From the NCBI GenBank assembly GCA_020525365.1, contig JAIZOF010000001.1:682502-746501 (forward strand): a DNA stretch of 64,000 nt, in the 5' to 3' direction. This document shows, one piece after another, positions 9,332 through 52,478 of this stretch. The DNA comes from Sulfurovum sp. (lineage in GTDB: Bacteria; Campylobacterota; Campylobacteria; Campylobacterales; Sulfurovaceae). The stretch's first letter is position 1; each line of letters opens with the position of its first letter. The notes beneath the pieces were generated by a model. That model searched no databases and was not told where the DNA came from. It saw only the letters and a list, made by a program, of their open reading frames with translations. The translations under genes were made by a program, and so were the position numbers.

Positions 9332-9456
9332 ACTGCTGCAAAAAGAGCAAAAAATAAAGGAATGAAAGTGGTACAAAACCTTTGCGCCATGATTGAATGT
9401 CACCATATGTGACTGAACCCTCAAAAACTACTTATTTATCCAGCATAAAGGTGTTT

Positions 9457-9533
<77 letters not shown>

Positions 9534-9589
9534 TCAAATGAAGTATGTGATTTTATAGCCTGAAATAGCATTCAAGCCAAAATCTATTA

Positions 9590-9664
9590 TGGATGGGGTA
9601 GAGGGATTCGAACCCCCGAATGACTGGACCAAAACCAGTTGCCTTACCGCTTGGCTATACCCCA
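9590..9664 (-). tRNA. tRNA-Gln (TTG)
   Basis: A 75-base cloverleaf with acceptor TGGGGTA/TACCCCA, anticodon loop TTTTGGT (anticodon TTG) and encoded CCA. The U1-A72 pair is the element GatCAB uses to recognise tRNA-Gln in bacteria that make Gln-tRNA by transamidation; gatA is present at 56021. The discriminator base is T, where G is usual. Confidence 0.95.
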
Positions 9665-9678
9665 ATTATGTAGGCGAA

Positions 9679-9707
9679 ATTATAGCACCAAATGTTTTGC
9701 TTGTCAA
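9679..9707 (-). promoter_or_regulatory. Promoter of tRNA-Gln/tRNA-fMet
   Basis: On the minus strand TTGACA (9702-9707) and TATAAT (9679-9684) are separated by 17 bases and lie 14 bases upstream of tRNA-Gln. Both boxes are consensus. Confidence 0.85.
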
Positions 9708-9799
9708 GACTTTATTTCTATGGATTGGATACGCATATGGACATATTTATAGATACTTCATCACATGCATTATCAATGAAAAGGAGGGCTAAGAGATTT

Positions 9800-9867
9800 A
9801 AAAAAAGTGAAGTTTTGAAAGGATGACAACCCAATGTCAGTTCAACCTTACTCGGAACTTCAAAACC
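9800..9867 (-). ncRNA. Structured three-way-junction small RNA
   Basis: The minus strand has a TATAAT box ending at 9872 and seven T at 9806-9800, which would give an RNA of about 68 bases. Within it GTTTTGAA (9866-9859) pairs with TTCAAAAC (9819-9812), closing GTTC/GAAC (9858-9855 with 9843-9840) and TGACA/TGTCA (9839-9835 with 9828-9824). Only four bases of the junction are unpaired. An alternative pairing GAAGTT/AACTTC would bring a stem next to the U-tract. No known RNA family was recognised. Its position upstream of the Cas9-like gene suggests a guide, tracr-like or leader role, which is inference. Confidence 0.5.
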
Positions 9868-9871
9868 GATT

Positions 9872-9900
9872 ATTATAGCACCTTTTGTGTCCCCACACAA
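9872..9900 (-). promoter_or_regulatory. Promoter of the small RNA
   Basis: Minus-strand TATAAT (9872-9877) with TTGTGT (9895-9900) 17 bases upstream. The -10 region shares 11 bases, GGTGCTATAAT, with the tRNA-Gln promoter. A perfect 6-bp hairpin TTGTGT-CCCC-ACACAA (plus strand) overlaps the -35 region. Confidence 0.55.
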
Positions 9901-9948
9901 GCAGGCTACGACTCCATTGTAAATCAAAAAACCTTAAAAGGATATAAA

Positions 9949-12900
9949 ATGGTAAAAATATGTCAAAATATTTTAGGATTAGAGATAGGAATATCCTCTA
10001 TAAGCTGGGCAGTGATTAACTACTGTAATCAAAATACGGATCACAATAAAATTATAAAAAGTGGTGTACGCATTTTTACTCAGGCAGAACATCCCAAGGA
10101 TGGCAGTTCATTGGCACTACCTAGACGTTTAGCAAGAGGAACAAGGCGTACACTAAAACGAAAACGTCAGCGAATGAAGCAGATCAAAAATCTTTTGGTA
10201 GACACTTTGGGTTTAACCAAGAAAGATTTATTTGTAGATACGACAGATGAGACAATTTATAGCAAAAAAGGGAATATTGATATTTGGCAACTTAGGAAAG
10301 ATGCTGTTAAATGTAAATTATCCAATACAGAGTTTGCAAGAGTACTCACACACATAGCAAAGCATAGGGGATATAAATCTAATAGAAAAGTAGATGAACA
10401 AGGCGACAGTGAAGGCAAAAAAGTACTCAGTGCCATAGAATACAATAAGACACTTTTAACAAAATATGAAACCATAGGTCAAGCTATTTATGAAACACAT
10501 AAAGACAGAAACATATTTAGAAACAAAAAGGAAGATTATTCACATAGTGTCTCAAGAGAGATGCTTTTGGATGAGATAACAACAATATTCAAAAAACAGC
10601 AACACTTTAACAATCATTTGGCTACAGATGAACTAAAAGACAAATATATAGAGATAGCATTTTTTCAACGTGATTTTGCATCTGTTGATGGCATGGTAGG
10701 CAAATGTACACTCGAACAAGATAAATTAAGGGCTGCTAGAAGAACCTATAGTGCAGAAGAGTTTATGACACTTACAAAACTCATTAATACCAAAATTGTC
10801 ATGGAAGATGGTAAAGAGAGGGGGTTAACACAAGAAGAGCTAGAAAAACTTATATCACTTTGCAAGCAGAGTGAAAATCCTACCTATATTAAAATGAAAA
10901 AGGCTATCAAGATAGAACCTACTTCCCAATTTAAAAATGTAGAAGATTACGAGACAGATAAAGAGTACAAGAAAAGTCTTACAAAAATCACAACATTTAA
11001 GAGTAGCTTTCAAGGGTACCATAGCTTAAGGCATGTTATCACAAAAGCACTTTCCAAAACACATTGGCATAATATATCACAAGATACTAGATTACTTGAT
11101 GATATAGGTACAATTTTTTCTATCCACAAGAGTGATGAAAAAATTAAAAATGCTTTAAATGGGCTAGCATTTACGATGCTCAATGAAGATGAGACACAGA
11201 CTGTTAAAGAGGCACTTATTTCATCCATCAGTTTTAGAGGATTTATTCATTTAAGTCTAGAGGCTTTAGAGAAACTTCTTCCTTACCTAAGGGAAGGTAA
11301 ATGTTATGATGAAGCTATGGATTTAGCAGGGTACAAAAAAAAGTCTGGTACGCAACAGAAATTCTTACGAGCACTAACCAAAGAAGAACAAAGCGAACTT
11401 ACCAGTCCCATAGTCAGACGTGCCATCACTCAAACACGAAAAGTGGTTAATGCACTCATCCGAGAGTATGGACAGTTTGATGCTATACATATAGCACTTA
11501 CAAGTGAAATCAAAAAAAGTTACAAAAACAGAAAAAGGCTAGAAGATTCTCAGAGAAAAAAGCAAGCACTTGAAAAAAAAGCAATAAAAAGTTTTATGGG
11601 ATATGTTGGAAGAGAGCCAAAAGAGAATGAACTGCTCAAATTTATGCTTTGGGAAGAGCAAGATGGTTACTGTGCCTACAGTGGTTTTATGGGGGAAAAA
11701 GCTTATATACAACCTAAAAAACTCATAACAGATGCCAAATATACTAAAATAAGCCATATACTTCCCTATAGTAGAAGTTTTGATGATAGCCCAAACAATA
11801 AAGTACTCTGTCTTGCCAAAGAGAGCCAAGAGAAGAAAAATATGACCCCTTTTGAATATTTTAATACTATAGACAGAGACTGGAGTAGCTATGAAACATA
11901 CATAAAAGCAATGAAAGGTATACATAGGGTCAAAAAAAGTAAGTTACTTAAAAAGAATTTTAATCAAAACGTAGAAGAAGAGTTTCAAAAACAAAATGTA
12001 TATGATACAACATTTACAGCACACTATATTAAAAACTTTATAGAAGAAAACCTTGAACTTACAGGTAATACAAAAGAAAAGGTTAGTGCAATCAACAATA
12101 CATTAATTAAGACGCTCAGATATGGATGGGGAGTGGATGCCAGGGGAGAAGATACATATTTGCATTATGCAATTAATGCTATCATCGCTGCTTTTGCTAC
12201 ACAAAATGAAGTACAAAAACTCTCTATACAATCAGCCAAAATAGAGGAATTTGGGCAAAATAAAGAAAAATCACAATATTTTAAGTTTACACCTCCTGTA
12301 GAGAACTTTGAAAAAAAAGTACAAAAGTGTATAGATGAGATATTTGTCTCTCATATGCCTAGACGAAAAGTAACAGGTGCAGCACACGAGGAGACAATCT
12401 ATAGCCCTATTACCTTTGTAGCCAATCGAAAAAAAGAGAACCCATCTATCTTGCCACACAGTACAAGAAAAAGGGCTGTAGTGCTAAATATGGGTAAAAA
12501 GTTAGCCAAGCATAGCTCTATGCCTAGGATAGATATATTTCAACATAAAGATAGTAAAAAATACTATGTTGTGCCCCTGTATGTCTCTGATTTTGTAAAG
12601 AAAGCATTGCCAAATAAAGCCATCGTGCAAGGTAAAAACAAAAATGGTTCTCCCAAAGAGTGGTTGGAGATGGATGAAAATTATGAATTTAAATTTTCAC
12701 TCTTTAAGGGTGAACTAGTAGAGGTTCAGACCAAAAAAACCAAAACAAAAAAAGCTAAAAATATTGTAGGATATTTTGTTTTTGCACATAGTGCAACAGG
12801 TGCAATCATTCTTAGAAGTCATGACAATTCTGAAAAAGACGGCTTCAAGAGAAGTGCTTCAGGTAGTTGCGAAATGAGTTTGGGTATTCAAAATGTTGAG

Positions 12901-13032
12901 TATGTAAAAAAATATCAAGTTGATGCCTTAGGCAACAGACATGAAGTCAAACAAGAGCCAAGAATGGCAATGGTAACAGCAAAAAGAAAAGAACACATTA
13001 AAGCAAAAGCCAATGTTGCTATTGGGTTTTAA
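9949..13032 (+). CDS. Cas9 homologue, C. jejuni type, catalytic sites lost
   Basis: A 1,027-residue protein colinear with C. jejuni Cas9 (984 aa). Order: RuvC-I (1-45), Arg-rich bridge helix (58-82), REC lobe (83-485), RuvC-II (486-540), HNH (560-640), RuvC-III (690-760), WED/PI domain (790-1027), with the C. jejuni-like stretches SGVRIFT, SLALPRRLAR and PYSRSFDD. Catalytic positions have changed: RuvC D to E12, E to A516, H to Y740, D to N743; HNH D to S602 and N to S626, while H603 remains. RNA- and DNA-binding parts look intact, so a binding-only, nuclease-dead protein is inferred. Start: ATG 9949 with aaaagga; the frame is open 42 codons further, but C. jejuni Cas9 starts here. No cas1, cas2 or array is near. 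Confidence 0.9.
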   Translation: MVKICQNILGLEIGISSISWAVINYCNQNTDHNKIIKSGVRIFTQAEHPKDGSSLALPRRLARGTRRTLKRKRQRMKQIKNLLVDTLGLTKKDLFVDTTDETIYSKKGNIDIWQLRKDAVKCKLSNTEFARVLTHIAKHRGYKSNRKVDEQGDSEGKKVLSAIEYNKTLLTKYETIGQAIYETHKDRNIFRNKKEDYSHSVSREMLLDEITTIFKKQQHFNNHLATDELKDKYIEIAFFQRDFASVDGMVGKCTLEQDKLRAARRTYSAEEFMTLTKLINTKIVMEDGKERGLTQEELEKLISLCKQSENPTYIKMKKAIKIEPTSQFKNVEDYETDKEYKKSLTKITTFKSSFQGYHSLRHVITKALSKTHWHNISQDTRLLDDIGTIFSIHKSDEKIKNALNGLAFTMLNEDETQTVKEALISSISFRGFIHLSLEALEKLLPYLREGKCYDEAMDLAGYKKKSGTQQKFLRALTKEEQSELTSPIVRRAITQTRKVVNALIREYGQFDAIHIALTSEIKKSYKNRKRLEDSQRKKQALEKKAIKSFMGYVGREPKENELLKFMLWEEQDGYCAYSGFMGEKAYIQPKKLITDAKYTKISHILPYSRSFDDSPNNKVLCLAKESQEKKNMTPFEYFNTIDRDWSSYETYIKAMKGIHRVKKSKLLKKNFNQNVEEEFQKQNVYDTTFTAHYIKNFIEENLELTGNTKEKVSAINNTLIKTLRYGWGVDARGEDTYLHYAINAIIAAFATQNEVQKLSIQSAKIEEFGQNKEKSQYFKFTPPVENFEKKVQKCIDEIFVSHMPRRKVTGAAHEETIYSPITFVANRKKENPSILPHSTRKRAVVLNMGKKLAKHSSMPRIDIFQHKDSKKYYVVPLYVSDFVKKALPNKAIVQGKNKNGSPKEWLEMDENYEFKFSLFKGELVEVQTKKTKTKKAKNIVGYFVFAHSATGAIILRSHDNSEKDGFKRSASGSCEMSLGIQNVEYVKKYQVDALGNRHEVKQEPRMAMVTAKRKEHIKAKANVAIGF

Positions 13033-13033
13033 G

Positions 13034-13054
13034 TTAAAGGGTTTAACCCCTTAA
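13034..13054. terminator. Hairpin just after the Cas9-like gene
   Basis: TTAAAGGG and CCCCTTAA pair with one A-C mismatch around a 5-base loop, 2 bases after the stop codon. There is no U-tract downstream on the plus strand, so it is a weak terminator or part of an RNA structure on the minus strand. Confidence 0.4.
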
Positions 13055-13064
13055 TAATAGCAAT

Positions 13065-13113
13065 TTGTGTGGGGAAGGTACTATAGCTTTATCATAACAG
13101 AAGCACTATTGTA
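13065..13113 (-). other. Possible antisense RNA start and flank motif
   Basis: TTGTGTGGGGA followed by AGGTACTATA (plus strand, 13065-13085) resembles the inverted motif upstream of the gene. A bulged hairpin, ATAGCTT with AAGC(AC)TAT, spans 13083-13109, and TACAAT lies on the minus strand at 13108-13113. A tracr-like RNA transcribed toward the Cas9 3' end is possible, but the -35 box is poor and no anti-repeat can be proved without an array. Confidence 0.25.
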
Positions 13114-13185
13114 GCATATTTGTATGAAAAAAAGATATTATTCCCCATATTGGTTCGCAATATTAGAAATTTTAATGTCAAATAA

Positions 13186-13198
13186 ATGACTCAGTCAT
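13186..13198. repeat. 13-bp palindrome at inner repeat edge
   Basis: ATGACT-C-AGTCAT is a perfect dyad. The identity between the two outer arms ends inside it, at 13193. Because the dyad continues unbroken on the left side, the left junction is probably the native continuation of the chromosome. Confidence 0.6.
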
Positions 13199-23197: not shown

Positions 23198-23969
23198 CCA
23201 TAAGTTTTATGGGAAAAAGAGTACTTTAGGTCACATGCTACTGCCTCAAAGTATGCTTGATGGTAAAGGAATAGACTATGTCAATGATTCGTTCAGGGTA
23301 TTTAAGCCCCGCTATCTATTTACCCCAAAAGGGTATATTAACCGTTGGCAGATGAGAGAGGGTAAGCATACAGGAGAGGGGTACTCTGACCACTTGCCCA
23401 TTTTTGCACTATTTGATACAAAGCCATACCTGCCTTTGGTAACAAAAAATCAGAAAGCACTAAAGAGTAGCACCATAGAGATGCTTTATGCGACCGATAA
23501 GCTTGATGCACCCGTTGTATTGAAAGATGTGGTTGTTGTGCTTGAACGTGGACGTTCTGTTGTCATTAAACAGTACCCCAAGGGTAGAGGTGTATTTGTC
23601 TTTGGCTTAGTTGGTTTAAGAGAGGGACATCGTTACGACCTGACAATACAGACAATACACACATATAAGGGGCTCAAGGAGATTACGGCAATATCACACA
23701 TAACAGAGAAGGGGAGAGTGGCTCTTTCTGCTTATTATGGTAGTTTTGATAAGATGAGACAAAATGAAGTGGTACGGAATCTTGTTGGGGTATATCAAAA
23801 AGGCTACTTTTGCACCGATGGCAAAAAGATACCTATCTACTTTAAAAGTCGGAAACTGATACCACGCAATGGTACTAAAATAAAGATAGCCATAGCCCAT
23901 ATAGGATATTATAGAAGGCTACAGCTAGTGATATATAGCAAAAAAGACTTTACAATACTGGAGAAATAG
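23172..23969 (+). CDS. EEP-family nuclease/phosphatase, 5'-truncated
   Basis: The C-terminal part of an endonuclease/exonuclease/phosphatase-family protein. The SDHLP motif (GEGYSDHLPIFALF, about 20 residues after a WQMREGKH stretch) supplies the family's catalytic Asp-His pair. It is followed by about 180 residues of unrecognised, beta-rich sequence (VVVVLERGRSVVIKQYPKGRGVFVFG). The N-terminal two thirds of the EEP domain are missing because the fold point cuts the gene; the frame is open from 23172, and the ATG at 23235 is only an internal methionine. It abuts hemJ with no gap. In the true genome the gene should extend beyond this point. Confidence 0.7.
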   Translation, partial: ELSPQERWNHKFYGKKSTLGHMLLPQSMLDGKGIDYVNDSFRVFKPRYLFTPKGYINRWQMREGKHTGEGYSDHLPIFALFDTKPYLPLVTKNQKALKSSTIEMLYATDKLDAPVVLKDVVVVLERGRSVVIKQYPKGRGVFVFGLVGLREGHRYDLTIQTIHTYKGLKEITAISHITEKGRVALSAYYGSFDKMRQNEVVRNLVGVYQKGYFCTDGKKIPIYFKSRKLIPRNGTKIKIAIAHIGYYRRLQLVIYSKKDFTILEK

Positions 23970-32509: not shown

Positions 32510-33112
32510 TTATTTGTCATATTTCGTAAGCTTATTGTGACGAATCACACTACGAATCTCTTTTATATAAGCATTACCCCTTTCAGAATAGTATTTTAAA
32601 CCTTTTATGATTTCGGTAGCAGGCTTATCTTCGTAGTTCATTTTTTTAAATATTTTATAGCGTGATGAAGATGAGAGCATAAAGTAATACTGTCTGATTG
32701 CTTCATTGAGGTTATCAAACTTTCTTACCCAAATTGTTTTTTTTCCACGTTTTTGCAATGCTGCAATTCTCTTTTTTTTCGAACTTGTACTCCAGACGCC
32801 AAAGATATTATTAGCTTTACAAAAAAATCGAGATGTGCCCCATGCACTCTCTATGGCAGCTTGTGCTAGGGTTATGCTCATAGGATGTGGCTTGATAGCA
32901 ACAAGAAGCTCCTTATCTGTTTTGACTCCATATTTCTTTTTTAGGGCTACAATTTTTTTTTGATTTGTATGGTTTTGCAAATCTTTTTTTACTTTAAGGT
33001 ACTGTTTTTGTAGTAATTTATGGATGTATTCAATGGGTGGAACCAAAAGAGTAAAAAATCGTTTTTTCTTCTCTTGGACACTCATATTTTTTGGTACCAC
33101 ATTAGAGAACAT
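32510..33112 (-). CDS. Glucosaminidase-domain protein (Bax-like), 5'-truncated
   Basis: The 200 residues contain a glucosaminidase domain of the Bax/FlgJ kind: SITLAQAAIESAWGTSRFF with the likely catalytic Glu (about residue 84), KANNIFGVWS, and a C-terminal YYSERGNAYIKEIRSVI. It would hydrolyse peptidoglycan or glycan links outside the cytoplasm. No signal peptide is seen because the clean sequence breaks at 33113; the degenerate copy at 13301 shows that the native protein starts further upstream. The ATG at 33112 lies on junction sequence and is not trusted. Confidence 0.7.
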   Translation of the reverse strand: MFSNVVPKNMSVQEKKKRFFTLLVPPIEYIHKLLQKQYLKVKKDLQNHTNQKKIVALKKKYGVKTDKELLVAIKPHPMSITLAQAAIESAWGTSRFFCKANNIFGVWSTSSKKKRIAALQKRGKKTIWVRKFDNLNEAIRQYYFMLSSSSRYKIFKKMNYEDKPATEIIKGLKYYSERGNAYIKEIRSVIRHNKLTKYDK

Positions 33113-33472
33113 TTATACATTAAGGTAAAAAAATGTGAAAACCCTATTGATAGCATTGTTGATTCCTAAATGGATTAATAATACCAAACTGTTTTGCAAA
33201 ACAACAACATTACTCTGCCAATGTGGGTACTCAAAAATAAGGAGTGTCCAAGAGAAGAAAAAACGATTTTTTACCTTTGGTTCCACCCATTGAATACATC
33301 CATAAACACTACAAAACAGTACTCTTAGTAAAAGATTTGTAAAACCATACAAATCAAAAAACAGTCCCTAAAAGAAATATAAATAAACAGATAAGGAGCC
33401 TGCTGCCATCAAGCTACACATCCTATGAGCATAACCCACAAGCTGCCATAGAGAGTGCATAAGTACATCTCG
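33113..33472. repeat. Second degenerate fold-back segment
   Basis: These 360 bases run in the same direction as 13461-13810 and are a noisy inverted copy of the glucosaminidase 5' region (about 32850-33107 plus some 130 bases upstream of it). Then the sequence jumps to the clean outer arm. There is no gene here; the open frame on the minus strand is a by-product. Confidence 0.8.
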
Positions 33473-33633
33473 TGAGTCATTTATTTGACATTAAAATTTC
33501 TAATATTGCGAACCAATATGGGGAATAATATCTTTTTTTCATACAAATATGCTACAATAGTGCTTCTGTTATGATAAAGCTATAGTACCTTCCCCACACA
33601 AATTGCTATTATTAAGGGGTTAAACCCTTTAAC

Positions 33634-36600
33634 TTAAAACCCAATAGCAACATTGGCTTTTGCTTTAATGTGTTCTTTTCTTTTTGCTGTTACCATTGCC
33701 ATTCTTGGCTCTTGTTTGACTTCATGTCTGTTGCCTAAGGCATCAACTTGATATTTTTTTACATACTCAACATTTTGAATACCCAAACTCATTTCGCAAC
33801 TACCTGAAGCACTTCTCTTGAAGCCGTCTTTTTCAGAATTGTCATGACTTCTAAGAATGATTGCACCTGTTGCACTATGTGCAAAAACAAAATATCCTAC
33901 AATATTTTTAGCTTTTTTTGTTTTGGTTTTTTTGGTCTGAACCTCTACTAGTTCACCCTTAAAGAGTGAAAATTTAAATTCATAATTTTCATCCATCTCC
34001 AACCACTCTTTGGGAGAACCATTTTTGTTTTTACCTTGCACGATGGCTTTATTTGGCAATGCTTTCTTTACAAAATCAGAGACATACAGGGGCACAACAT
34101 AGTATTTTTTACTATCTTTATGTTGAAATATATCTATCCTAGGCATAGAGCTATGCTTGGCTAACTTTTTACCCATATTTAGCACTACAGCCCTTTTTCT
34201 TGTACTGTGTGGCAAGATAGATGGGTTCTCTTTTTTTCGATTGGCTACAAAGGTAATAGGGCTATAGATTGTCTCCTCGTGTGCTGCACCTGTTACTTTT
34301 CGTCTAGGCATATGAGAGACAAATATCTCATCTATACACTTTTGTACTTTTTTTTCAAAGTTCTCTACAGGAGGTGTAAACTTAAAATATTGTGATTTTT
34401 CTTTATTTTGCCCAAATTCCTCTATTTTGGCTGATTGTATAGAGAGTTTTTGTACTTCATTTTGTGTAGCAAAAGCAGCGATGATAGCATTAATTGCATA
34501 ATGCAAATATGTATCTTCTCCCCTGGCATCCACTCCCCATCCATATCTGAGCGTCTTAATTAATGTATTGTTGATTGCACTAACCTTTTCTTTTGTATTA
34601 CCTGTAAGTTCAAGGTTTTCTTCTATAAAGTTTTTAATATAGTGTGCTGTAAATGTTGTATCATATACATTTTGTTTTTGAAACTCTTCTTCTACGTTTT
34701 GATTAAAATTCTTTTTAAGTAACTTACTTTTTTTGACCCTATGTATACCTTTCATTGCTTTTATGTATGTTTCATAGCTACTCCAGTCTCTGTCTATAGT
34801 ATTAAAATATTCAAAAGGGGTCATATTTTTCTTCTCTTGGCTCTCTTTGGCAAGACAGAGTACTTTATTGTTTGGGCTATCATCAAAACTTCTACTATAG
34901 GGAAGTATATGGCTTATTTTAGTATATTTGGCATCTGTTATGAGTTTTTTAGGTTGTATATAAGCTTTTTCCCCCATAAAACCACTGTAGGCACAGTAAC
35001 CATCTTGCTCTTCCCAAAGCATAAATTTGAGCAGTTCATTCTCTTTTGGCTCTCTTCCAACATATCCCATAAAACTTTTTATTGCTTTTTTTTCAAGTGC
35101 TTGCTTTTTTCTCTGAGAATCTTCTAGCCTTTTTCTGTTTTTGTAACTTTTTTTGATTTCACTTGTAAGTGCTATATGTATAGCATCAAACTGTCCATAC
35201 TCTCGGATGAGTGCATTAACCACTTTTCGTGTTTGAGTGATGGCACGTCTGACTATGGGACTGGTAAGTTCGCTTTGTTCTTCTTTGGTTAGTGCTCGTA
35301 AGAATTTCTGTTGCGTACCAGACTTTTTTTTGTACCCTGCTAAATCCATAGCTTCATCATAACATTTACCTTCCCTTAGGTAAGGAAGAAGTTTCTCTAA
35401 AGCCTCTAGACTTAAATGAATAAATCCTCTAAAACTGATGGATGAAATAAGTGCCTCTTTAACAGTCTGTGTCTCATCTTCATTGAGCATCGTAAATGCT
35501 AGCCCATTTAAAGCATTTTTAATTTTTTCATCACTCTTGTGGATAGAAAAAATTGTACCTATATCATCAAGTAATCTAGTATCTTGTGATATATTATGCC
35601 AATGTGTTTTGGAAAGTGCTTTTGTGATAACATGCCTTAAGCTATGGTACCCTTGAAAGCTACTCTTAAATGTTGTGATTTTTGTAAGACTTTTCTTGTA
35701 CTCTTTATCTGTCTCGTAATCTTCTACATTTTTAAATTGGGAAGTAGGTTCTATCTTGATAGCCTTTTTCATTTTAATATAGGTAGGATTTTCACTCTGC
35801 TTGCAAAGTGATATAAGTTTTTCTAGCTCTTCTTGTGTTAACCCCCTCTCTTTACCATCTTCCATGACAATTTTGGTATTAATGAGTTTTGTAAGTGTCA
35901 TAAACTCTTCTGCACTATAGGTTCTTCTAGCAGCCCTTAATTTATCTTGTTCGAGTGTACATTTGCCTACCATGCCATCAACAGATGCAAAATCACGTTG
36001 AAAAAATGCTATCTCTATATATTTGTCTTTTAGTTCATCTGTAGCCAAATGATTGTTAAAGTGTTGCTGTTTTTTGAATATTGTTGTTATCTCATCCAAA
36101 AGCATCTCTCTTGAGACACTATGTGAATAATCTTCCTTTTTGTTTCTAAATATGTTTCTGTCTTTATGTGTTTCATAAATAGCTTGACCTATGGTTTCAT
36201 ATTTTGTTAAAAGTGTCTTATTGTATTCTATGGCACTGAGTACTTTTTTGCCTTCACTGTCGCCTTGTTCATCTACTTTTCTATTAGATTTATATCCCCT
36301 ATGCTTTGCTATGTGTGTGAGTACTCTTGCAAACTCTGTATTGGATAATTTACATTTAACAGCATCTTTCCTAAGTTGCCAAATATCAATATTCCCTTTT
36401 TTGCTATAAATTGTCTCATCTGTCGTATCTACAAATAAATCTTTCTTGGTTAAACCCAAAGTGTCTACCAAAAGATTTTTGATCTGCTTCATTCGCTGAC
36501 GTTTTCGTTTTAGTGTACGCCTTGTTCCTCTTGCTAAACGTCTAGGTAGTGCCAATGAACTGCCATCCTTGGGATGTTCTGCCTGAGTAAAAATGCGTAC

Positions 36601-36717
36601 ACCACTTTTTATAATTTTATTGTGATCCGTATTTTGATTACAGTAGTTAATCACTGCCCAGCTTATAGAGGATATTCCTATCTCTAATCCTAAAATATTT
36701 TGACATATTTTTACCAT
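33634..36717 (-). CDS. Cas9 homologue, catalytic sites lost (second copy)
   Basis: Identical at protein level to the product of 9949-13032: 1,027 residues with C. jejuni Cas9 layout and the same changes at RuvC (E12, A516, Y740, N743) and HNH (S602, S626; H603 kept). Being the mirror image of the left copy, it carries no independent evidence. It reads toward the glucosaminidase segment and away from the tRNAs. If the right arm proves to be an assembly duplicate, this entry should be merged with the left one. Confidence 0.8.
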   Translation of the reverse strand: MVKICQNILGLEIGISSISWAVINYCNQNTDHNKIIKSGVRIFTQAEHPKDGSSLALPRRLARGTRRTLKRKRQRMKQIKNLLVDTLGLTKKDLFVDTTDETIYSKKGNIDIWQLRKDAVKCKLSNTEFARVLTHIAKHRGYKSNRKVDEQGDSEGKKVLSAIEYNKTLLTKYETIGQAIYETHKDRNIFRNKKEDYSHSVSREMLLDEITTIFKKQQHFNNHLATDELKDKYIEIAFFQRDFASVDGMVGKCTLEQDKLRAARRTYSAEEFMTLTKLINTKIVMEDGKERGLTQEELEKLISLCKQSENPTYIKMKKAIKIEPTSQFKNVEDYETDKEYKKSLTKITTFKSSFQGYHSLRHVITKALSKTHWHNISQDTRLLDDIGTIFSIHKSDEKIKNALNGLAFTMLNEDETQTVKEALISSISFRGFIHLSLEALEKLLPYLREGKCYDEAMDLAGYKKKSGTQQKFLRALTKEEQSELTSPIVRRAITQTRKVVNALIREYGQFDAIHIALTSEIKKSYKNRKRLEDSQRKKQALEKKAIKSFMGYVGREPKENELLKFMLWEEQDGYCAYSGFMGEKAYIQPKKLITDAKYTKISHILPYSRSFDDSPNNKVLCLAKESQEKKNMTPFEYFNTIDRDWSSYETYIKAMKGIHRVKKSKLLKKNFNQNVEEEFQKQNVYDTTFTAHYIKNFIEENLELTGNTKEKVSAINNTLIKTLRYGWGVDARGEDTYLHYAINAIIAAFATQNEVQKLSIQSAKIEEFGQNKEKSQYFKFTPPVENFEKKVQKCIDEIFVSHMPRRKVTGAAHEETIYSPITFVANRKKENPSILPHSTRKRAVVLNMGKKLAKHSSMPRIDIFQHKDSKKYYVVPLYVSDFVKKALPNKAIVQGKNKNGSPKEWLEMDENYEFKFSLFKGELVEVQTKKTKTKKAKNIVGYFVFAHSATGAIILRSHDNSEKDGFKRSASGSCEMSLGIQNVEYVKKYQVDALGNRHEVKQEPRMAMVTAKRKEHIKAKANVAIGF

Positions 36718-36765
36718 TTTATATCCTTTTAAGGTTTTTTGATTTACAATGGAGTCGTAGCCTGC

Positions 36766-36794
36766 TTGTGTGGGGACACAAAAGGTGCTATAAT
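36766..36794 (+). promoter_or_regulatory. Promoter of the small RNA (second copy)
   Basis: Mirror copy of 9872-9900: TTGTGT, 17 bases, TATAAT, reading away from the Cas9-like gene. Confidence 0.5.
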
Positions 36795-36798
36795 AATC

Positions 36799-36866
36799 GG
36801 TTTTGAAGTTCCGAGTAAGGTTGAACTGACATTGGGTTGTCATCCTTTCAAAACTTCACTTTTTTT
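36799..36866 (+). ncRNA. Structured three-way-junction RNA (second copy)
   Basis: Mirror copy of 9800-9867, same predicted stems (8, 4 and 5 bp) and seven T at the 3' end. It is encoded here on the plus strand, in front of tRNA-Gln and on the same strand. Confidence 0.45.
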
Positions 36867-36958
36867 AAATCTCTTAGCCCTCCTTTTCATTGATAATGCA
36901 TGTGATGAAGTATCTATAAATATGTCCATATGCGTATCCAATCCATAGAAATAAAGTC

Positions 36959-36987
36959 TTGACAAGCAAAACATTTGGTGCTATAAT
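36959..36987 (+). promoter_or_regulatory. Promoter of tRNA-Gln (second copy)
   Basis: TTGACA (36959-36964), 17-base spacer, TATAAT (36982-36987). Mirror of 9679-9707. Confidence 0.8.
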
Positions 36988-37001
36988 TTCGCCTACATAA
37001 T

Positions 37002-37076
37002 TGGGGTATAGCCAAGCGGTAAGGCAACTGGTTTTGGTCCAGTCATTCGGGGGTTCGAATCCCTCTACCCCATCCA
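37002..37076 (+). tRNA. tRNA-Gln (TTG) (second copy)
   Basis: Identical to the tRNA-Gln at 9590-9664, including encoded CCA, U1-A72 and the unusual T discriminator base. Confidence 0.95.
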
Positions 37077-37132
37077 TAATAGATTTTGGCTTGAATGCTA
37101 TTTCAGGCTATAAAATCACATACTTCATTTGA

Positions 37133-37209
<77 letters not shown>

Positions 37210-37328
37210 AAACACCTTTATGCTGGATAAATAAGTAGTTTTTGAGGGTTCAGTCACATATGGTGACATTCAATCATGGCGCAAAGGTTTTGTACCACTT
37301 TCATTCCTTTATTTTTTGCTCTTTTTGC

Positions 37329-37784
37329 TCTAAGCATGATCTTGTTTTGTCTTCAATGAAATATTATTTAGAACAAGCTCTAAAGCGTTATTGGGTAAAA
37401 CCATTGGAGAGGAGTGAAGAACCCATAGAGACACTCATCCAACAAATAAAACTATATCAAAATATGTTTTTAGATCCTAAAAATTTTTTAGATTTAAAAC
37501 ATGGTTGTCCATTGAGTAATTTTATTTTAGATATGAGTGATAAGGATCCATTGTTTTTTGAGTATCTTAAAGGTGTCTATGTAAGATGGGAAAAAGCGAT
37601 AGAACAAGCACTAGATAAAGCAAAAGAGCTACAGCAGACAAAAACAGATTTCAATTCTAAACATCAAGCAGTTTTTATTATGTCATCCTTAGAGGGGACA
37701 ATTGGGTGCACAAAAGCATTTAATGATATCAAAATACTGAAAAAGGGAATATCGGTATTAAAAGAGCATATAGGTCAACTTTAG
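37329..37784 (+). pseudogene. TetR-family regulator, N-terminus missing
   Basis: About 150 residues with the C-terminal ligand-binding domain of a TetR/AcrR regulator: SKHDLVLSSMKYYLEQAL at the end of the usual helix-turn-helix, then KHGCPLSNFILDMSDKD and ALDKAKELQQ. The DNA-binding helix-turn-helix of about 45 residues that should precede SKHDLV is replaced by repeat-arm sequence. So the gene is broken exactly at the 37328 junction, and the frame that continues upstream into the arm is accidental. A 7-bp hairpin (TGAGGAG/CTCCTCA) follows at 37812-37838. Confidence 0.7.
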
Positions 37785-51715: not shown

Positions 51716-51792
51716 TGGCGCGGCGGACGAGACTCGAACTCGCGACCCCCTGCGTGACAGGCAGGTATTCTAACCAACTGAACTACCGCCGC
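51716..51792 (-). tRNA. tRNA-Asp (GTC)
   Basis: 77 bases, acceptor GCGGCGG/CCGCCGC, anticodon loop CTGTCAC with GTC, encoded CCA. Last gene of a seven-tRNA minus-strand cluster. Confidence 0.95.
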
Positions 51793-51926
51793 ACAAAACC
51801 AACTTAATGGTTGAAAAGATTTTAACTAAATTTTGTATAAACAAAACTAATTCTATGAACATATTCTACCAAAAGAAACCCAGTGTTCATCTAGAAAGAT
51901 GAGTTTTGCTCATTTTTTCTATCTAA

Positions 51927-52002
51927 TGGTGGTCGCTACAAGACTCGAACTTGTGACATCTACCTTGTAAGGGTAGCGCTCTACCAACTGAGCTAAGCGA
52001 CC
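51927..52002 (-). tRNA. tRNA-Val (TAC)
   Basis: 76 bases, acceptor GGTCGCT/AGCGACC, anticodon loop CTTACAA with TAC, encoded CCA. Same sequence as 52109-52184 over the whole gene. Confidence 0.95.
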
Positions 52003-52004
52003 AA

Positions 52005-52080
52005 TGGCGACCCTTAAAGGATTTGAACCTCTGTGACTACGATGAAAACGCAGCATCCTTGGCCACTAGATGAAAGGGTC
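52005..52080 (-). tRNA. tRNA-Glu (TTC)
   Basis: 76 bases, acceptor GACCCTT with AAGGGTC, anticodon loop TTTTCAT with TTC, encoded CCA. Separated from tRNA-Val by two bases. Confidence 0.95.
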
Positions 52081-52108
52081 ATATAGATCCAAACAGTCAT
52101 AAAATACA

Positions 52109-52184
52109 TGGTGGTCGCTACAAGACTCGAACTTGTGACATCTACCTTGTAAGGGTAGCGCTCTACCAACTGAGCTAAGCGACC
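52109..52184 (-). tRNA. tRNA-Val (TAC)
   Basis: 76 bases, duplicate of the tRNA-Val at 51927-52002, with encoded CCA. Confidence 0.95.
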
Positions 52185-52204
52185 AATGGTGTAATATACT
52201 ATGG

Positions 52205-52280
52205 TGGTGACCCGTCTAGGATTCGAACCTAGGGCCCACTCCTTAAAAGGGAGTTGCTCTACCGACTGAGCTAACGGGTC
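52205..52280 (-). tRNA. tRNA-Lys (TTT)
   Basis: 76 bases, acceptor GACCCGT/ACGGGTC, anticodon loop CTTTTAA with TTT, encoded CCA. Duplicate at 52403-52478. Confidence 0.95.
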
Positions 52281-52295
52281 AATATCAAATAAAAG

Positions 52296-52372
52296 TGGCG
52301 CGGCGGACGAGACTCGAACTCGCGACCCCCTGCGTGACAGGCAGGTATTCTAACCAACTGAACTACCGCCGC
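52296..52372 (-). tRNA. tRNA-Asp (GTC)
   Basis: 77 bases, duplicate of 51716-51792, encoded CCA. Lies between the two tRNA-Lys genes. Confidence 0.95.
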
Positions 52373-52402
52373 ACCATAACCTAATTAAAGGCTTAATATA
52401 GG

Positions 52403-52478
52403 TGGTGACCCGTCTAGGATTCGAACCTAGGGCCCACTCCTTAAAAGGGAGTTGCTCTACCGACTGAGCTAACGGGTC
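52403..52478 (-). tRNA. tRNA-Lys (TTT)
   Basis: 76 bases, first gene of the cluster after its promoter. Same sequence as 52205-52280. Confidence 0.95.

Follow-up and report, generated by a model that had tools for sequence, protein, structure and literature searches.

Catalytically dead Cas9 (dCas9) is hand-made and among the most used laboratory tools. In nature, TnpB and Cas12 both have nuclease-dead relatives. Here we describe a Cas9 homologue, and the guide RNA locus flanking its gene, in 64,000 nucleotides of a Sulfurovum sp. genome (contig JAIZOF010000001.1, positions 682,502 to 746,501; hereafter the window). Both nuclease sites of laboratory dCas9 are disabled and its binding parts are kept. 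The same is predicted for the window Cas9; it differs in its natural origin, its six catalytic substitutions and its putative fixed native guide. The closest natural systems are the type II-C Cas9 proteins of Campylobacterota, kin of Campylobacter jejuni Cas9 (CjCas9), found at cas9-cas1-cas2-array loci (for example in genomes G063 and G149). With these, the window locus shares full-length Cas9 homology, the type of trans-activating CRISPR RNA (tracrRNA) and the repeat family. Conversely, cas1 and cas2 are gone from it, as are the catalytic residues and every repeat-spacer unit but one.

Three further systems invite comparison. TldR proteins, which are nuclease-dead, TnpB-derived repressors, have likewise lost the RuvC site and apparently keep RNA and DNA binding; short guides may suffice for them (PMC13418256). 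However, TldR targets are known, and the window protein is not of TnpB origin but a Cas9 with a tracrRNA and a CRISPR RNA (crRNA). Cas12m, of subtype V-M, shows programmable DNA binding without cutting (PMC11013384), a property that we infer for the window Cas9. Cas12m belongs to a different protein family and serves an array, whereas the window locus has one spacer. In Francisella (scaRNA) and Streptococcus (tracr-L), Cas9 acts as a repressor via a diverged repeat or a short guide match. Those proteins are active nucleases that leave the DNA uncut because the match is short (PMC8730458); the window Cas9 is predicted to be unable to cut. Most likely, the window Cas9 works like dCas9, TldR or Cas12m, by RNA-directed binding without cutting. 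We favour, as the probable interpretation, a natural dCas9 that would bind DNA under RNA guidance and probably act as a silencer. Evolution has seemingly made an RNA-aimed DNA-binding protein out of a DNA cutter. If the protein does bind DNA, evolution produced the same tool as the laboratory, and the locus is a minimal, directly testable system of one protein, one tracrRNA and one guide.

The initial annotation, made from the sequence alone, had described a full-length Cas9 homologue with dead RuvC and HNH sites. In profile searches, the protein of open reading frame (ORF) 9949-13032 scored 615 bits with TIGR01865 (cas_Csn1), where the cut-off is 100, and exceeded the cut-offs of Pfam HNH_4 and RuvC_III. 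The model match is full-length and includes the RuvC, bridge helix, recognition (REC), HNH and PAM-interacting (PI; PAM, protospacer adjacent motif) regions. By homology, the ORF encodes a full-length type II-C-like Cas9. Its closest relatives, in genomes of the same family, are 58-70% identical, with full-length identity up to 68%. The RuvC residues D, E, H and D are E12, A516, Y740 and N743, and the HNH residues D and N are S602 and S626. Only H603 is retained. In motif order, the window protein reads E-A-S-H-S-Y-N where its relatives read D-E-D-H-N-H-D. The latter was found in 40 of 40 related Campylobacterota Cas9 rows, at the sites that each row covers, and the catalytic loss is unique to the window protein among 41 Cas9s. 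An extra CjCas9 row, used as support only, also reads D-E-D-H-N-H-D where covered. Alignment with a solved Cas9 structure (PDB 9ar4) gave identical substitutions, and the residues flanking every motif align unambiguously. Hence, no shifted alignment restores the catalytic sites, and each residue named in the initial annotation agrees with ORF, structure and alignment. The window protein is predicted to be unable to cut DNA. An AlphaFold model built from nine sequences was poor (predicted local distance difference test 63, predicted template modelling score 0.34, weakest near the RuvC motifs) and was not used.

The relatives share 117 invariant columns, of which 16 are altered in the window Cas9. 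With domain limits transferred from CjCas9, and so approximate, 15 of 68 such columns are altered in the nuclease part (RuvC and HNH). In the binding part, comprising bridge helix, REC and PI, the count is 1 of 49 (Fisher p=0.0019). Within the nuclease part the counts were 2/14 for RuvC-I, 4/11 for RuvC-II, 2/31 for HNH and 7/12 for RuvC-III. For the binding regions they were 0/7 in the bridge helix, 1/26 in REC (a K to R change) and 0/16 in the wedge (WED)/PI region. Change at catalytic positions, compared with the remaining invariant columns, gave p=1.7e-5. Individual active relatives, given the same treatment, had 2 to 6 altered invariant sites each. By this count, the changes in the window Cas9 are targeted at nuclease sites and are not random.

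We also fitted a codon model (own script; 8 sequences, 868 codons, shared branch lengths). For the nuclease part, the dN/dS ratio (omega) was 0.110 on the window branch and 0.029 elsewhere in the tree. For the binding part, the values were 0.062 and 0.046. Separate omegas for the two parts on the window branch gave twice the log-likelihood difference (2dlnL) of 36.5; the same contrast in four active control lineages gave 0.06, 0.79, 3.96 and 1.42. As synonymous changes are saturated, we trust the contrast and its controls, and not the absolute omegas. Relaxation is seen on the window lineage alone, and there in the nuclease part rather than the binding part. For the binding part, omega=1 was rejected by a 2dlnL of 29. 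The branch leading to the window protein is 0.32 long; one active relative (L008 of G171) has a branch of 0.33 and the others are shorter. That binding stayed under selection once the nuclease was inactivated is better argued from the count of invariant sites. Taken together, low dN/dS and the retention of invariant sites support continued selection on the binding lobes, which is consistent, indirectly, with RNA-guided DNA binding. The earlier proposal that binding is still under selection gains from both, and from the retained tracrRNA and repeat:antirepeat pairing described below.

The relatives share a predicted tracrRNA antisense to, and upstream of, cas9. A counterpart lies in the window; this, and the repeat-spacer unit discussed below, had been missed by the initial annotation. 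The core retains 60 of 62 invariant positions and the upper antirepeat 20 of 25, which points to a type II-C tracrRNA at 9800-9912. Its start is expected near 9909. A covariation search of the tracrRNA, whose sequences differ too little, gave no pair in which both partners had changed. We rejected ATTATAGCACC, which resembles the repeat and lies near 9680, as it looks like the -10 box of the tRNA-Gln promoter. The antirepeat self-folds in the window and in the relatives. This would suit a tracrRNA-derived single guide that acts on its own locus, like Streptococcus tracr-L, the leftover crRNA unit being dead. However, the -10 box immediately precedes the antirepeat and leaves no room for a guide, and near matches to the stretch on the tracrRNA 5' side reveal no coherent target. 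We consider such a guide very improbable.

In relatives, cas9, cas1 and cas2 are accompanied by an array whose repeat is 36 nt long and whose period is 66 nt. It had been stated that no cas1, cas2 or array is present. For cas1 and cas2, which in relatives both sit between cas9 and the array, this holds genome-wide. For the array it does not; a one-spacer remnant (13033-13126, minus strand) directly follows the cas9 stop codon. The remnant consists of one repeat, one spacer and half a repeat, rather than multiple repeats. Pairing of the window repeat with its own antirepeat was calculated at -36.7 kcal/mol, and with the antirepeats of two relatives at -33.5 and -32.0 kcal/mol; shuffled repeats averaged -13.6 kcal/mol. 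If transcription starts about 7 bases past TACAAT, the guide would be some 13-15 nt long. Judged by these parts, the locus does not qualify as a functioning type II-C system.

Table 1. Features of the window Cas9 locus and of its mirror copy
Feature	Position	Strand	Basis or remark
Cas9 homologue, 1027 aa, RuvC/HNH catalytic residues lost except H603	9949..13032	+	model, structure and alignment comparisons
Predicted tracrRNA, antisense to and upstream of cas9	9800..9912	-	sequence conservation with relatives
Likely -10 box TACAAT of tracrRNA	9916..9921	-	by eye; an AT-rich stretch resembling a -10 box occupies this position in relatives
Array-ending hairpin	13033..13053	-	relatives have a GGGGCTT...AGCCCC hairpin at the same place
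Diverged CRISPR repeat, pairing with the tracrRNA antirepeat	13054..13087	-	
20-nt spacer AGTGCTTCTGTTATGATAAA	13088..13107	-	
Second repeat, 3' half, with -10 box TGCTACAAT, likely crRNA promoter (inferred)	13108..13126	-	
Mirror copy of cas9, most likely assembly artefact	33634..36717	-	
Mirror copy of tracrRNA, most likely assembly artefact	36754..36866	+	coordinates by reflection

We propose the following scheme. A type II-C locus would have lost cas1, cas2 and nearly its whole array, and its Cas9 all four RuvC and two of three HNH catalytic residues; the binding lobes, the tracrRNA and one repeat-spacer unit would have stayed. The tracrRNA would pair with crRNA from the sole remaining unit, and Cas9 would load the duplex. 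Loaded Cas9 would then find a PAM and a short seed match, form an R-loop, stay bound and so block transcription at that site. In this scheme, expression, the loading of RNA, binding to DNA, silencing and a chromosomal target are each putative. A bolder claim is that this Cas9, natural and fully nuclease-dead, is the first of its kind to have been domesticated as a dedicated RNA-guided transcription regulator, with the tracrRNA and crRNA unit as a fixed guide and a chromosomal target. This we advance tentatively, with slightly more doubt than belief.

Several observations weigh against a natural dCas9. The dead Cas9 is known from one genome only, and no dead sister attests to conservation of its state. 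The spacer is 20 nt long rather than the usual 30, and half of the second repeat is lost, which would also fit decay. In the codon model, synonymous sites are saturated and the window branch is partly older than inactivation. Finally, the spacer has no convincing target in the genome or in viral contigs. A decaying CRISPR remnant, its function lost and its sequence drifting, with no stop codon yet, would account for the absence of cas1, cas2 and most of the array, for the missing repeat half and for the restriction to a single genome. Conversely, drift would strike invariant sites everywhere, yet 48 of 49 are kept in the binding part and 15 of 68 are altered in the nuclease part. Furthermore, the frame is open over its full length and the tracrRNA core is retained. 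We regard decay as unlikely, and keep it in consideration because only one genome has the dead Cas9.

Neither viral contigs nor the related Cas9 loci examined in genomes of the family and order, where not every match was read, contained a second dead homologue. Two tests in the sense of the initial annotation support nuclease loss with binding still selected: substitutions concentrate at nuclease sites, and dN/dS is low in the binding lobes. Plasmids contained only distant Cas9s of about 33% identity or less, with catalytic sites unread. In the open-access literature searched, a natural dead Cas9 is undescribed; most subscription papers lie outside that literature and the absence is not proof. 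For contrast, G382:C1:1280850-1283819 holds a distant relative of Cas9 that is truly decaying, its frame interrupted by nine stop codons.

We searched the genome for a target of the spacer. With a 17-mer and 3 mismatches, or a 13-mer and 1 mismatch, genome hits did not exceed those of the reversed-pattern control. The 13 nt adjacent to the repeat had no second genome match at 0 mismatches, and two sites with 1 mismatch, fewer than the reversed control. No exact match to the spacer was found in viral contigs. A weak lead is a site (C1:383798-383815) that spans the start codon of a gene for a MoxR-like ATPase. It matches 12 of 13 nt, including the last 10 nt of the spacer, and is followed by CAAAATAC, a fit to a CjCas9-type PAM. 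The PAM of CjCas9 is N4RYAC, and that of the window Cas9 may differ. Because the site was found post hoc, and about 0.2 such sites are expected by rough estimate, we treat it as a mere lead. TldR represses with guides down to 6 nt (PMC13418256); by analogy, a short spacer match could work.

The lack of a clear chromosomal match would also suit binding-only immunity, in which the protein uses its one spacer to block replication or transcription of an invader without cutting. Cas12m indicates that binding alone can protect (PMC11013384). However, there is a single spacer, with no cas1 or cas2 to acquire others, and viral contigs hold no exact match. We think this somewhat less likely even than decay. 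As for the RNA-guided regulator first suggested for this protein, nuclease loss with binding under selection is supported; the regulatory role stays conjectural, for want of a convincing target and of a second dead homologue.

The assembly around the locus is unusual. Positions 9338-37328 form a giant fold-back palindrome centred near 23333. Its outer arms, at 9338-13193 and 33473-37328, span 3,856 bp and show 100% identity. Between the inner arms, identity falls to 88% and the alignment opens about 1,000 gaps; of these two arms, the left disrupts genes that are intact in the right. Most likely, the palindrome is the product of a fold-back read in assembly. Hence, the second cas9 copy and the sequence past 13193 are most likely artefacts and, given the low quality of the left inner arm, no neighbourhood is readable beyond 13193. 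An assembly so clearly faulty raises the question of whether the dead Cas9 is itself a sequencing or assembly error. However, the cas9 unit lies in the clean, identical outer arms with its frame unbroken, whereas the poor inner arm is rich in indels. Moreover, base-calling error would hardly alter 16 invariant sites with the frame preserved, 15 of these within the nuclease part. As the initial annotation had held, the substitutions do not look like noise, and we consider error the least probable explanation of all, below even the single guide.

A smaller fold-back is nested within the large one at 32829-33472 (32829-33103 against 33220-33472). By eye, two frames look cut by the palindrome: 37242-37784, a TetR-like C-terminal part, at the outer junction, and 23235-23969, an endonuclease/exonuclease/phosphatase-like C-terminal part, at the centre. 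Elsewhere in the window, seven tRNA genes are clustered at 51716-52478 in near-identical repeats (Asp, Val and Lys twice each). In the same genome, near C1:52000 (L102, 219-905), an 83-codon frame occurs in tandem copies about 438 bases apart.
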